The position numbers were made by a program, and so were the translations under genes. This document shows positions 51,043-56,701 of a stretch of 64,000 bases of DNA, one piece after another. Below the pieces are notes generated by a model, which worked only from the letters and a program-made list of their open reading frames with translations, searched no databases and was not told the origin of the DNA. Source of the DNA: Candidatus Planktophila lacus (GTDB taxonomy: Bacteria; Actinomycetota; Actinomycetes; Nanopelagicales; Nanopelagicaceae); assembly GCF_002288325.1 (NCBI RefSeq), contig NZ_CP016780.1, positions 1,240,001-1,304,000 of the forward strand, read 5' to 3'. How positions within the stretch are numbered: the stretch's first letter is position 1; each line of letters begins with the position of its first letter.

Positions 51043-51106
51043 ATTCACTCCTCTCATCTCGGCTTCAACTACATCACAAAGTAAACAGAGTTCACAATAC
51101 TTAAGG

Positions 51107-51194
51107 GACCCCTCACGCACCCATCAGAGCACGCCTACCCTTGCTGTATTCCTACCCTGGGGGAGTTCAGCGCGGTAATGCCGCGTGAGGGATC
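51107..51194 (-). ncRNA. ffs: Small signal recognition particle RNA (4.5S)
   Basis: The minus strand folds into one long hairpin: a 12-bp closing stem (51183-51194 with 51107-51118) and the SRP core CAGGGTAGGAATACAGCAAGG, i.e. the GGAA tetraloop with the conserved AGG and AGCA internal loop. The position upstream of dnaX is typical for actinobacteria. TATCCT (51207-51202) ends seven bases before the stem, so the transcript should begin at G51194. Alu domain absent, as in the small bacterial type. Confidence 0.9.
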
Positions 51195-51201
51195 TGGCGT
51201 A

Positions 51202-51207
51202 AGGATA
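51202..51207 (-). promoter_or_regulatory. -10 of the SRP RNA promoter
   Basis: TATCCT on the minus strand, seven bases before the predicted 5' end of ffs at 51194. Confidence 0.55.
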
Positions 51208-51251
51208 GTTGTTACACCTATACCCTTAGCCAGTCGGGAGCGATCCCGCCG

Positions 51252-51336
51252 GGAGGATTCGCATAGCGGCCGAGTGCGCACGCTTGGAAAGCGTGTAAAG
51301 GGCAACCTTTCGAGGGTTCAAATCCCTCATCCTCCG
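51252..51336 (+). tRNA. tRNA-Ser (anticodon GGA)
   Basis: An 85-nt class II tRNA: acceptor GGAGGAT/ATCCTCC, anticodon loop TTGGAAA reading GGA, a long variable arm (AAAGGGCAACCTTT) and T-arm GAGGG TTCAAAT CCCTC. Discriminator G, no encoded CCA. An AT-rich two-gene segment with foreign codon use begins directly downstream. Confidence 0.97.
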
Positions 51337-51402
51337 CAGGGTGTATTTCAGCCATCGCCAATGGGTGGGGATAACCTGATTAAGGTCGTCAGAGCTTTTC
51401 TC

Positions 51403-51408
51403 TATTTT
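51403..51408 (+). promoter_or_regulatory. Possible -10 of the island gene, leaderless
   Basis: TATTTT ends six bases before ATG 51415; TTAAGG at 51380-51385 is a weak -35 with a 17-bp spacer. Confidence 0.4.
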
Positions 51409-51414
51409 TCAGGA

Positions 51415-51912
51415 ATGCCAATAACTATTCCTAAATCATTACTTCTCGTACCTAAAATCCCCAGCATCGCTGTTGTTGGTTTACTAGCAGCCCAATTTCT
51501 TATCCTTCAAAGTATTGGAGGTACTGAACCTAAGTGCACTTTAAATGTCGAGAGGCCACACTATTCAACAAGTTTGTCTGAAAATCAAAACATCGATGCC
51601 ATTAAACTGAATATCACCTCGATTTGTAATGTCTCACAAAAATACACTCAACTAAGCGCATCTATACAAAAAATTAAGAATAACCGCGAAATCACTGCCT
51701 ACTCATTTGTAAATGAAAGAAGGAGCTCGACCACCAAATCACCTAATGTCGCGAGCTTCAAAGAGCTCTTCGGTCCATGTCAGAAGGGGGTATCCGCCGC
51801 ATATCGTGGCACCGCCCAGGGTTATGTGTACTTAGAAAATGGCAAAAAACTGGCTGTTAAGGGAGACTCAGGAAAATTTGTAGCGGCAGGATGCTTGATA
51901 GGTGCACAATAA
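51415..51912 (+). CDS. Orphan membrane-anchored protein downstream of tRNA-Ser
   Basis: 165 residues, no family recognised. It has an N-terminal hydrophobic anchor (KIPSIAVVGLLAAQFLILQSIG) followed by an extracytoplasmic part with four cysteines (in EPKCTL, TSICNV, GPCQKG and AAGCLI) that could make two disulfides, plus many Asn, Ser and Lys residues. The open frame extends upstream through the tRNA (to 51178), which is meaningless; ATG 51361 is an alternative start, but ATG 51415 follows a -10 hexamer. Composition is more AT-rich than the neighbours, consistent with gain by transfer. Confidence 0.6.
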   Translation: MPITIPKSLLLVPKIPSIAVVGLLAAQFLILQSIGGTEPKCTLNVERPHYSTSLSENQNIDAIKLNITSICNVSQKYTQLSASIQKIKNNREITAYSFVNERRSSTTKSPNVASFKELFGPCQKGVSAAYRGTAQGYVYLENGKKLAVKGDSGKFVAAGCLIGAQ

Positions 51913-52454: not shown

Positions 52455-53873
52455 TTAGATTTCGACGCCAATGTATTTGGTCTCGAGGAATTCGTGGATG
52501 CCGTCGAAGCCGCCTTCGCGACCAAGGCCGCTCTGCTTAACTCCACCGAATGGCGCTGCTGGATCTGAAATCATTCCGCGGTTTATCGCAACCATTCCGG
52601 ATTCAAGGGCCTCAGAAATCTGGATCGCGCGCTTTAAATCTTCAGAGTAAACGTAGCTAATAAGTCCGAAGTCAGTGCTATTTGCGAGTTCAATCGCTTC
52701 AGCATCGGTATCGAAGATAACCACTGGTGCAACCGGACCGAAGACTTCGTGGTTAAGAATTTCCGCTGATTTATCAACTTCTAGAACTGTTGCAGGATAG
52801 AAAGCGCCTGGACCATCAGGGGTCTTGCCGCCTGTTAATACCTTGGCTCCAGACTTAACTGAGTTATCAACTAGCTCTGCAATCTTGTTGCGTTCTTTAA
52901 TTGAGACGCTCGCACCAAGTTGTACGCCAGTATCGCGACCGCGTCCCATTACAAATGCGCCCATTGCTGCCGCAAACTTTTGAGTGAATTCTGCAGCAAC
53001 TTTTCTCTGTACATAAATACGATTTGCAGCGGTACAAGCAGCGCCGCCATTGCGCATCTTTGCCAACATCAAACCTTTAATTGCTTCATCAACATTGGCA
53101 TCATCCATAACAACAAACGGTGCATTTCCGCCGAGCTCCATAGAGCAACGAATTACATTATCGGCAGCTTCTTTAAGGATGATGCGACCAACTTCAGTAG
53201 AACCAGTAAATGAAAGATTCTTAACACGTGGATCATGCAACATCTTGGCGATTGCAGGACCTGTTGGTGTTGGAAGAATTAAATTGACAACGCCCTTAGG
53301 AACGCCGGCGCGATCAAGAATGTCCATGATGGCGAGCGCGGTTAGAGGTGTTTCACCAGCTGGTTTTAAAATCATTGTGCAACCTGCAGCAATTGCAGGA
53401 CCAATTTTACGTGTTGCCATTCCGGCAGGGAAGTTCCAAGGAGTAATAAGAAGTGAGAGACCAACAGGTTGGTGTGTAACTAAAATTCGCTTATCGCCAC
53501 TAGGTGACATGCGGAATTCTCCTGCAATGCGTACTGCTTCTTCAGAGAACCAGCGGAAGAATTCTGCGGCGTAGGCAACTTCACCTTTAGCATCAGGTAG
53601 CGCCTTGCCATTTTCTTTGGAAATTAACTCTGCTAAGTAATCTGCTTCTTGAATCATTAACTCAAATGCTTTACGTAGCATCTCTGCGCGCACGCGGGGC
53701 GCGGTCTTGGCCCAGGCAGGTGCGGCGCGGTGGGCGGCAGCTAGGGCGGCCTCGATCTGCGCATCTCCGGCGGTGGCTACCTTGGCAATTACTGAGCCAT
53801 CACTGGGATCTGTTACATCTAAAGTGCCATTTCCATCTACCCATTGACCGTCTATATATAACTGAGTGCGCAT
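52455..53873 (-). CDS. NAD(P)-dependent succinate-semialdehyde/aldehyde dehydrogenase
   Basis: ALDH-superfamily enzyme, 472 residues, closest in pattern to GabD-type succinate-semialdehyde dehydrogenases. Catalytic Glu is in MELGGNAPFVV and catalytic Cys in NGGAACTAANRIYVQ; the coenzyme region has LLITPWNFPAGMATRKIGPAIAAG and FTGSTEVGRIIL. The exact aldehyde is not certain. TATGCT (53885-53880) ends six bases before the ATG, so the mRNA may be leaderless. It diverges from the KimA-like gene. Confidence 0.9.
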   Translation of the reverse strand: MRTQLYIDGQWVDGNGTLDVTDPSDGSVIAKVATAGDAQIEAALAAAHRAAPAWAKTAPRVRAEMLRKAFELMIQEADYLAELISKENGKALPDAKGEVAYAAEFFRWFSEEAVRIAGEFRMSPSGDKRILVTHQPVGLSLLITPWNFPAGMATRKIGPAIAAGCTMILKPAGETPLTALAIMDILDRAGVPKGVVNLILPTPTGPAIAKMLHDPRVKNLSFTGSTEVGRIILKEAADNVIRCSMELGGNAPFVVMDDANVDEAIKGLMLAKMRNGGAACTAANRIYVQRKVAAEFTQKFAAAMGAFVMGRGRDTGVQLGASVSIKERNKIAELVDNSVKSGAKVLTGGKTPDGPGAFYPATVLEVDKSAEILNHEVFGPVAPVVIFDTDAEAIELANSTDFGLISYVYSEDLKRAIQISEALESGMVAINRGMISDPAAPFGGVKQSGLGREGGFDGIHEFLETKYIGVEI

Positions 53874-53897: not shown

Positions 53898-56273
53898 ATG
53901 GACGCGCTAGCCGCGGTAACTGAAGGAGTTTTTGTGCCCAAGTCGTGGACAGATGGTGCGCCTGAACCAGTTGCTCTCCAAGAAACTGCGCATGTAAAAG
54001 ATCCGCTTAGCTACAAGGTAAAGCGCCGTCTTTTAGGTAATGCGCTTAACCGACATTCGCTCGGACATCAACGTTTATCAAAGCGCTACGCACTCGGAAT
54101 TCTCTCTTCCGACTGTATTTCATCTTCGGCTTACGGTACTGAACAGATTCTTATTGCGCTCTTGCCAGCATTTGGATTAGCAGCTTTCGCAATATTGATG
54201 CCAATGACAGCGGTTGTTTTGGTAATTCTTACCATAATTACACTTTCATACCGCAATGTGATCGATGTTTATACAAAAACTGGTGGCGCATACATTGTCG
54301 CGCGAGATAATTTCGGACCTGTAACAGCGCAGATTGCAGCAGTTGCTTTGATTCTTGATTACGTCGTAACAGTTGCAATTCAATCTGCAGCAGGTGTTGC
54401 CGCAATCATTTCTACATTCCCATCACTCGATCCATGGAAAATTCCAATGATCTTGTTGGTAATCGTTCTACTTACTTACGGAAATCTCCGCGGTGTTAAA
54501 GAAGCCGGAAAAGCTTTTGCATTCCCAACTTACTTCTTCGTCGGTTGTATGTTGATTGTCTTCGGAATGGGTTTCTGGCGACTCTTCAACGGAACGCTTC
54601 CAGTTCTTGCAACTGATCTACCCGGTGCGGTTGAAGTTGGACAAGAGCAAGGACTTTTAACGGCAGCTGCAATCTTTATCCTGCTTCGTGCATTTGCAAA
54701 TGGCGGATCTTCACTAACTGGTTTGGAAGCAATTTCCGATGGCGTTGCGCTATTTAAGACACCAGAACATGTAAACGCAAAACGCACACTCGTGATCATG
54801 AGCTGCATCCTTGGAACTCTCGTACTTGGAGTTTCTTACTTTGCTCATCACATTCAAGCAATGCCTTATGAATCAGGAACTCCTACAGTTATTTCGCAGA
54901 TCGCCAAGGCTGCAATCGGTGGTGGTGCTTTCGGCAGCTTTATGTTCGTAATGGTTCAGCTTGCAACGATGCTTATTCTCTTTGCTGGCGCTAACACCAC
55001 ATACAGCGCTTTCCCACTGCTCTGTAACTTTGTTGCAACTGATGGCTACCTTCCACGCCAATTAACTAAGCGCGGCCACCGCCTGGCTTTCTCAAATGGC
55101 ATCTTGCTACTTGCCGGTGGTGGAATTGTCTTGGTTTTGATTACCGCAGGTTCGGTTGAGCATCTAGTCGCTTTCTATGCACTCGGCGTATTTACTGGTT
55201 TTGCACTGGCCGGTTTCGGTATGACCAAGCATTCAATTCGAGTAAAACCCGACGGCTGGAGAGTACGAGTTGTAATTAATTTCCTTGCGGGATCTGTCTC
55301 ACTCGTAATTGTGATCATCTTCTCTGTTGTGAAATTTACACAAGGCGCTTGGTTGGTTCTGGTGGTTGCTCCGATCATGGTTGTTTCATTCTTACGCTTA
55401 CGTCGCCAATACACTCGCGAACAAGATGCTTTATTAGTCCGACGTGAACAAGAGCGTGCTACAACGATCGTTCGCCACAACGTTACAGTTCTGGTCGATA
55501 ACGTGGATTTAGCAACAGTTGGAGCCATTCGGTATGCGCGTAGTTTGAAACCAAGAAATCTCAGCGCTGTTCACTTCGTAATCGATGATCGTCGAGCAGA
55601 AGCAATTAAAGAGGCCTGGGCCAAGTCAGATGCGCTAGATGATGTCACTCTCGAATTAATCGACTGCCCTGATAGACGACTTGCAAATTCAGCGCTCGAC
55701 TATGCAATCCGCATGACGGAAAAGAATGATGTCGAGTTGACGCTTCTGCTTCCTCGTCGTGCATATTCTGGTTTCCTTGGCCGCTTGTTGCATGATCAAA
55801 CAGCGGAAGAAATTGCCGCACCTATTTCTCAATTGCAGCGCGTTGTTGCAACTATCGTTCCTTTCGACGTGGATCGCATTACATCTGCAACACAATTAAC
55901 AGTTGCGCCTCAAGGTGAAGCAAAACCAGCGGCAACTCCAGTTGCAAAATTTAAGCCTGTTGAAGATGTAATAAAGAACGTCGAACCAATTAGCCATTAC
56001 GCAGAAAATATGACGCCAATTGGTGAAATCCAGTGGCGCAAGCGGGCTCATGTTCAGGGTCGCGTAACTGCAATTAAAAGCGCGCCGCGAGGATCTGCGC
56101 CAATTCTTCAGGTAGAAGTTTGGGATCAGACCGGTGGGGTTACTCTGCAATTCTTGGGACGTCGCGAGATTGCAGGCTTAGAAGTCGGTTCGCAACTACG
56201 CGCCGAAGGAATGGTCGGAGAAGAAGAAGGCGCTTTGACTATCTTGAACCCTTCTTACGAACTTCTTGTTTAG
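53898..56273 (+). CDS. KimA-like APC-family permease fused to an OB-fold domain
   Basis: 791 residues. Residues 1 to about 520 form an APC-family transporter of the KimA/YdaO type, with about 12 membrane segments (SSDCISSSAYGTEQIL in helix 1, TYGNLRGVKEAGKAFAFPTYFF, NGGSSLTGLEAISDGVALF). Residues 520-660 are the cytosolic USP-like domain usual in this family. From about 700 an OB-fold nucleic-acid-binding-type domain follows (VQGRVTAIKSAPRGSAPILQVEV, LQFLGRREIAGLEVGSQLRAEG), normally a separate small protein encoded near such permeases in actinobacteria. Substrate is potassium or an amino acid. It overlaps tadA by 4 bp. Confidence 0.88.
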   Translation: MDALAAVTEGVFVPKSWTDGAPEPVALQETAHVKDPLSYKVKRRLLGNALNRHSLGHQRLSKRYALGILSSDCISSSAYGTEQILIALLPAFGLAAFAILMPMTAVVLVILTIITLSYRNVIDVYTKTGGAYIVARDNFGPVTAQIAAVALILDYVVTVAIQSAAGVAAIISTFPSLDPWKIPMILLVIVLLTYGNLRGVKEAGKAFAFPTYFFVGCMLIVFGMGFWRLFNGTLPVLATDLPGAVEVGQEQGLLTAAAIFILLRAFANGGSSLTGLEAISDGVALFKTPEHVNAKRTLVIMSCILGTLVLGVSYFAHHIQAMPYESGTPTVISQIAKAAIGGGAFGSFMFVMVQLATMLILFAGANTTYSAFPLLCNFVATDGYLPRQLTKRGHRLAFSNGILLLAGGGIVLVLITAGSVEHLVAFYALGVFTGFALAGFGMTKHSIRVKPDGWRVRVVINFLAGSVSLVIVIIFSVVKFTQGAWLVLVVAPIMVVSFLRLRRQYTREQDALLVRREQERATTIVRHNVTVLVDNVDLATVGAIRYARSLKPRNLSAVHFVIDDRRAEAIKEAWAKSDALDDVTLELIDCPDRRLANSALDYAIRMTEKNDVELTLLLPRRAYSGFLGRLLHDQTAEEIAAPISQLQRVVATIVPFDVDRITSATQLTVAPQGEAKPAATPVAKFKPVEDVIKNVEPISHYAENMTPIGEIQWRKRAHVQGRVTAIKSAPRGSAPILQVEVWDQTGGVTLQFLGRREIAGLEVGSQLRAEGMVGEEEGALTILNPSYELLV

Positions 56274-56701
56274 CGCTGACCTTCAAAGAAATCTCGCAGT
56301 AAATCAGCGCATTCACTTTCGCAGATTCCTGCTGTTACATCTAGCTTGTAAAGCGAACGTGGATCACGAATAACATCCCAAACTGAGCCAACTGCGCCGC
56401 CTTTGGCATCCCATGCGCCAAATATCAGATGTGAAATTCTTGATTGGGCAATGGCTCCGGCACACATTGGACAAGGCTCCAAAGTTACAACAAGCGTGCA
56501 ACCATCTAAACGTGAATTTTGTAATCGTGCGGCAGCGTTGCGAATTGCAACAATTTCAGCGTGTGCAGTCGGATCATTATTTGCTTCTCTTTCATTAGAT
56601 CCCGTGCCAATAACTACGCCATCTTTATTGATTACTAAAGCACCGACAGGAACATCTCCAGTAGCGGTTGCTTGACGTGCAATTGCGATCGCTTCTTGCA
56701 T
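56270..56701 (-). CDS. tadA: tRNA-specific adenosine deaminase
   Basis: Converts A34 to inosine in tRNA-Arg(ACG). The zinc motifs are HAEIVAIRNAAARLQ (His + catalytic Glu) and LEPCPMCAGAIAQSRI (two Cys). From ATG 56701 the protein has 143 residues, but it then lacks the usual first helix, and this ATG has no ribosome-binding site. Upstream in frame an ATT at 56728 (ISTHTPESLMQEAIAIARQ) lies eight bases after GGAG (56740-56737) and two bases past the stop of the preceding gene; it may be the real start (152 residues). It belongs with the associated protein upstream. Confidence 0.93.
   Translation of the reverse strand: MQEAIAIARQATATGDVPVGALVINKDGVVIGTGSNEREANNDPTAHAEIVAIRNAAARLQNSRLDGCTLVVTLEPCPMCAGAIAQSRISHLIFGAWDAKGGAVGSVWDVIRDPRSLYKLDVTAGICESECADLLRDFFEGQR

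Follow-up and report, generated by a model that had tools for sequence, protein, structure and literature searches.

A KimA-like permease with a C-terminal OB-fold domain in Candidatus Planktophila lacus and other actinobacteria

Introduction

In Bacillus, KimA, a K+/H+ symporter of the KUP family, is controlled by c-di-AMP. The closest described system is the KimA of B. subtilis (PDB 6s3k, 8b70 and 8b71; PMC6994465, PMC10284832), with a 12-TM LeuT-type domain and a cytosolic USP-like domain. According to PMC6994465, its K+ sites are D36, Y43, T121, T230 and Y377, and E233 is the proton residue. That paper and PMC10284832 also supplied the other site assignments used here, including the c-di-AMP pocket (R337, V457, A481, V506, H579, N580, Q581 and S582). 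Among actinobacteria, the Streptomyces protein Vnz_27465 is listed as KimA-like in PMC10117811. A transposon screen of M. tuberculosis found the same phenotype for mutants of ceoB and of the adjacent Rv2690c, as stated in PMC12216072.

The papers listed in literature searches, which cover subscription journals poorly, contained in their titles and the first lines of their abstracts no description of a KimA-OB fusion or of a cyclase loss in the family studied here. In the accessible part of PMC10219603, KimA appears only in the reference list, and the literature listings included no functional study of the stand-alone actinobacterial OB protein. The fusion described below ties this conserved OB-fold protein of Actinomycetota to K+ import, which gives it a testable function.

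The fused frame and its genomic context

The window, i.e. the whole 64-kb stretch of DNA analysed, contains at 53898..56273 (+) a single frame without any interruption, which was first given in the ORF list as 791 aa and encodes a KimA-like permease followed by an OB fold. Translation probably starts at GTG 53934 rather than at ATG 53898, since the frame closes upstream of the GTG position before any other start in 71 of 110 related loci (duplicates included, 11 not scorable) and since AAGGAG, a probable ribosome-binding site (53923..53928, +), precedes this GTG. The predicted CDS would then have 779 aa (53934..56273, +). The divergent neighbour (52455..53873, -), which we take from its sequence to be aldehyde dehydrogenase-like, is kept in the related loci mapped; the convergent one (56270..56701, -), presumably a TadA-like deaminase, is kept in most of them.

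The genome, that of an acI freshwater actinobacterium in the family Nanopelagicaceae, is a single contig of 1,384,812 bases. The protein is 100% identical in Ca. Planktophila lacus MMS-21-148 (complete chromosome NZ_CP016769.1), and the complete chromosome of IMCC19121 likewise carries the fusion. Moreover, the fusion is full-length and free of internal stops in 90 distinct proteins, namely 88 with at least 66% identity to the P. lacus protein and two (L028 and L029) from other families. A frameshift or assembly error joining two genes, which would have refuted the initial annotation, is excluded by these intact proteins and by the complete chromosomes of other isolates.

An Rfam scan of the window at the gathering score matched only tRNAs and an SRP RNA; a ydaO-type riboswitch, having no match at that score, was dropped as a candidate. 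The bacterial small SRP RNA lies at 51101-51197 (-), beside a tRNA-Ser (51252-51337). A 244-aa frame (51178-51912) overlapping this tRNA is spurious, at least partly.

Domain architecture

The phmmer search matched B. subtilis KimA over residues 39-636 (E 1.2e-100). An AlphaFold2 model of the full protein (mean pLDDT 76) aligned over residues 66-659 with residues 30-606 of KimA (8b71; Z 52.4, 540 aligned, rmsd 13.5 Å); the high rmsd probably reflects a different angle between the two domains. The protein thus shares with KimA the whole transmembrane domain of the 12-TM LeuT type (residues ~60-511; 54075..55430, +; from model and alignment) and the USP-like cytosolic domain (residues 526-657; 55473..55868, +; from the model), as the initial annotation had proposed. 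Because KimA aligns only to residue 659, the additional parts begin after its own C-terminus. They are a low-confidence linker (residues 665-703, pLDDT <50; 55890..56006, +; from the model) and the OB-fold domain (residues 704-790; 56007..56267, +; from the model and the profiles of relatives). The modelled boundaries agree well with the earlier placing of an OB fold at about 700-791, behind the USP-like domain.

The OB-fold domain

Modelled alone, the OB domain formed a five-stranded OB barrel (pLDDT 89), which resembles the OB domains of archaeal RPA (Z 12.9, 85-87 aligned, rmsd 1.7-2.0 Å). The P. lacus domain by itself matched RecG_wedge in Pfam (E 0.011; 15.8 bits vs a cut-off of 23) and RecG in NCBIfam (E 1.1e-5; 24 bits vs a cut-off of 796), so that no curated cut-off of the two databases was reached, and its own sequence did not match PF01336. 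Among the 37 aligned OB domains, 32 matched PF01336, the "OB-fold nucleic acid binding domain" (E <=1, best 2.1e-7), and two fused homologues from other families passed its cut-off of 27 bits with 32 and 28.7 bits (2 of 10 tails scanned). In the PDB, no useful match was found with the single OB sequence; the OB profile reached RecG at E 0.11. The sequence evidence of the P. lacus domain itself is weak; the assignment is supported by the fold model and the PF01336 matches of relatives. The fold and weak profile matches are common to the P. lacus domain and the RecG wedge/PF01336 folds; however, the matches lie below the curated cut-offs, the frame has no Pfam helicase match, and no DNA role is known.

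As the closest folds and profiles (RPA, RecG wedge and tRNA_anti-codon) are nucleic-acid binders, the domain might bind RNA or DNA, such as mRNA or the nucleoid, and so link K+ import to expression or location. This reading is improbable, since the ligands of OB folds include proteins and small molecules too, and a common fold shows no function.

The fused domain is homologous to the stand-alone OB protein encoded in the dut-CeoBC cluster of actinobacteria, presumably Rv2694c in M. tuberculosis. The stand-alone protein is encoded by a separate gene (138 aa in G056; stop-to-stop frames of ~130-165 aa elsewhere) and shows 29-41% identity to the fused domain (14 aligned). Both forms carry a nearly invariant G-R-R and an invariant N-P; within the 90 fused proteins, G754-R755-R756 and N784-P785-x-Y787 are invariant. 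In the OB tree (37 rows), one branch split the fused from the stand-alone domains with a support of 89/88, which is not firm. This tree left out the divergent OBs of L137-L144; the five of these that were scanned all matched PF01336 (E 1.2e-7 to 7.9e-5).

Distribution of the fusion

Within the genus, the fusion was matched in 34 of 37 genomes. It was nearly full-length in 27, and in six it was found as contig-cut pieces, each joining the cytosolic end of the permease to the OB in one frame; in G020 the match is divided between two contigs. The remaining three genomes of the genus, all drafts, had no match. All genomes listed for the order belong to a single family. Among these 296, the OB query matched 245, with every one of the 17 genera represented, and for good genomes the count was 102 of 108; an OB match by itself is no proof of fusion. 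The class sample (393 genomes) included 42 genomes of this family, 40 of which were fused; G094 had the canonical permease only and G120 had no match. Beyond the family, the fusion was found in at least 20 genomes from 13 further class families, where frames were also read. In the phylum sample (396 genomes), a match running through the OB was present in at least 14 genomes from outside the class; family f93 accounts for 11 of these, and the other-class families with the fusion also include f78 and f111. The phylum figures rest on matches rather than on frames read, and both counts are lower bounds, with at most two candidates scored per genome among the best matches listed. Short OB frames were also seen in G257, G285, G287, G082 and G305, perhaps at contig ends.

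A fusion unique to the P. lacus genome was thus rejected. It is less special than had been implied, and represents an old subfamily present in many actinobacterial families. The distribution also bears on the view that streamlining of the genome produced the fusion as a neutral by-product without regulatory meaning. The family genomes are indeed small (0.6-2.2 Mb as assembled), but outside the family the same fusion occurs in larger genomes, which come from at least 13 families of the class and from other classes, and its OB motifs are invariant in all the fused proteins, which makes such a view very unlikely.

Permease branches and conserved residues

The K+ residues of KimA correspond, in the order given above, to D72, Y79, T158, T274 and Y427, and its proton residue to E277; each is present in 90/90 fused proteins. 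The pocket for c-di-AMP is different. The P. lacus protein retains the R, H and Q of KimA but carries V457E, A481D, V506F, N580D and S582T, and its pocket is thus chemically altered. The retained arginine is R387 (55056..55058, +; from the alignment), equivalent to the c-di-AMP contact R337. The altered pocket includes D534, F560, H632, D633, Q634 and T635 in the USP-like domain; a further residue lining it, E508, ends the last TM helix. E508, D534, F560 and D633 are present in 90/90 fused proteins, R387 in 79/90, H632 in 90/90 and Q634 in 85/90. Three acidic side chains (E508, D534 and D633) at the position of a dianionic ligand argue against c-di-AMP binding.

A permease-domain tree of 53 rows, made by a quick method, placed 38 rows on one branch (type II) with a support of 100; the 14 canonical ones (type I) lay apart from it. 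The type II branch contains all 28 fused and 10 unfused rows. The canonical permease, which stands beside CeoB/CeoC and is presumably Rv2690c in M. tuberculosis, belongs to the same superfamily, and its K+ residues agree in 13 of 14 rows; it lacks the OB and is 33-36% identical to the fused form (six rows aligned). The type I rows retain the KimA-type H579, N580 and Q581 with V, I or L at 457 in 14/14, and R337 in 13/14; the exception, L159, has lost D36 too. By contrast, the type II rows have Glu at 457 (38/38), Asp at 580 (35/38), Asp or Asn at 481 (34/38) and Phe at 506 (31/38), with R337 retained in 37/38. Glu 457 and Asp 580 are found in 28/28 fused rows, and in 10/10 and 7/10 of the unfused type II rows, respectively. 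Since the unfused rows have most of these pocket changes, the changes are older than the fusion or independent of it.

The fused label needs three changes on the permease tree, and one gain with two losses is therefore indistinguishable from repeated gains. The 10 unfused rows also indicate that some type II permeases can do without the OB. Since the branch can function in its absence, a modulating role of the OB is more likely than a place in the transport path itself.

Diadenylate cyclase and c-di-AMP

The diadenylate cyclase domain (DAC, PF02457) was found in 0/296 genomes of the family and 0/108 of the good ones, including the single-contig genome of P. lacus; the same search was positive in 11 of 14 control genomes. 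In the genus the count was 0/37, vs 23/23 in the other class relatives. Judged by the 296 genomes of the order, the whole family seems to have lost c-di-AMP synthesis. The presence of KimA-type proteins in a family without a detectable diadenylate cyclase makes it possible to tell apart KimA's role in transport and its control by c-di-AMP. In addition, the RCK_C dinucleotide signature given in PMC10117811 is absent from CeoB and CeoC. Some fusion-bearing genomes of the class (G042, G045, G047, G056 and G059) do have the DAC domain, so the fusion and the cyclase loss are separate events.

The initial annotation had suggested that the OB fold senses a nucleotide such as c-di-AMP. Sensing by the OB domain, or by the USP-like domain as in Bacillus KimA, would be in line with the frequent retention of R387, H632 and Q634 and with the cyclase in those five genomes. 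Nevertheless, the missing cyclase of the family, the acidic pocket of all the fused proteins and the absent RCK_C signature make it extremely improbable, and for P. lacus it was rejected because of the first two; for this organism that part of the earlier interpretation is contradicted. Without a recognisable gene for c-di-AMP synthesis, P. lacus probably relies on some other control of its K+ intake.

The type I permease of genus g28, in the same family, has Ala at R337 in both readable sequences (L173 3344-5254 and L174 9568-11478), two further genomes ending before the site. With the rest of the pocket intact and no cyclase detected in the family, this is a small matching sign.

The canonical gene cluster

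The separate encoding of an OB protein beside the permease and TrkA-type genes in relatives, as the initial annotation had stated for actinobacteria, was confirmed. A separate OB match was found in 19/23 class relatives, and OB, CeoB, CeoC and a KimA-like permease are clustered together in 14 mapped loci. The order is dut-(DUF3710)-OB-(DUF3159)-CeoC-CeoB|permease-TrmA, and acnA or dxs often follows. Apart from the OB and TrkA_N families, these gene names are tentative labels. Among the 14 clusters, the permease is split over two frames in L036 and cut by the contig end in L175. The locus L158 (G048) has OB and CeoB/CeoC with no adjacent permease; therefore, OB and permease are not always neighbours. 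Within the family itself, genus g28 retains a separate OB (4/4 genomes, 133-aa frame), and both g28 and G100 of genus g30 have the canonical cluster.

The fusion-only genomes retain CeoB/CeoC and lack both the OB gene and the canonical permease in 5/5 mapped loci: those of P. lacus (L035), its congener G014 (L049), G047 (L039), G059 (L043; an 80% complete draft) and G474 (L133; status from two candidates scored genome-wide). The fusion fills the permease slot beside CeoB in G047, is flanked by TrmA and acnA in G474, and is 470 kb distant from the CeoB/CeoC cluster in Planktophila. The CeoB/CeoC pair of P. lacus itself (L035 9328-10649; C1:823327-824648) has no TrkH, and the permease and OB genes are missing from its cluster. 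G042, G445 and G056 each have a canonical permease besides the fused one, which shows that the fusion does not always replace it. The canonical copy of G056 is divided between two frames (L036 8266-10166), whereas the fused copy of this genome is intact.

The fusion itself and the joint absence of both separate genes support a functional link between the OB and the transporter. Of the direct link proposed initially, this part stands; the c-di-AMP part does not.

Potassium uptake and the possible role of the OB domain

TrkH and KdpA were each found in 0/37 genomes of the genus and Kup in 2/37, with none of the three in the P. lacus genome. The KimA-OB fusion is thus the only K+ uptake system found there among the four types sought, and its conserved residues suggest that it imports K+. 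TrkH was present in only 5/60 genomes, and CeoB/CeoC are therefore mostly without a TrkH partner. They need another partner, for which the KimA-like permease is the obvious candidate; the canonical and fused permeases probably have the same partners. For TrkA_N, four of the 37 genus genomes stand out, all of them drafts 74-89% complete: G029 and G035 had no match, and the matches in G018 and G022 were weak (about 1e-4).

We slightly favour the reading that the type II permeases form a distinct KimA branch independent of c-di-AMP, with the C-terminal OB as a regulatory or coupling module of a K+/H+ symporter. By the gene-fusion argument, this module would act in cis. The conserved basic GRR face (R755 and R756) might contact a ligand that is phosphorylated or resembles a nucleic acid, or else a partner, for instance CeoB/CeoC, and such binding could adjust K+ import without c-di-AMP. 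Alternatively, the OB might be a structural or assembly domain, which holds the dimer or docks CeoB/CeoC with no small ligand. The shared encoding of the separate OB, CeoB and CeoC with the permease, and the scarcity of TrkH, fit this alternative; but the invariant GRR and NPxY and the likeness to nucleic-acid-binding OB folds suit a ligand equally, and we consider it rather unlikely.

Extending the reading of the OB as a cis-acting module, it is conceivable, and put forward tentatively, that a widespread KimA branch gave up c-di-AMP control for a built-in OB sensor, with CeoB/CeoC as the orphan RCK pair at its side. A bacterial family dominant in fresh water would have lost c-di-AMP altogether and would control its K+ import in this manner, and the stand-alone OB would be an unrecognised third component of K+ uptake in other Actinomycetota. 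Should these abundant lake bacteria take up K+ mainly through the fused importer, the way it is regulated would matter for their handling of ionic change.

Tandem and modular arrangements

Tandem pairs of unfused type II permeases were found at L146 4013-7920, L148 6154-10007 and L150 6016-9948; the f4 genomes in which they occur have a fused copy at another place as well. A genome of another class has two tandem matches to the KimA-OB fusion (G974:C14:27760-32467). A modular swap was seen in L116 (6001-8367) and L027 (636-2954), whose TM domain is only 57% identical to that of P. lacus, with 91-94% identity in the USP-like domain and 86-97% in the OB. The protein of L024 (1501-3867) is identical to that of L116 after residue 12.
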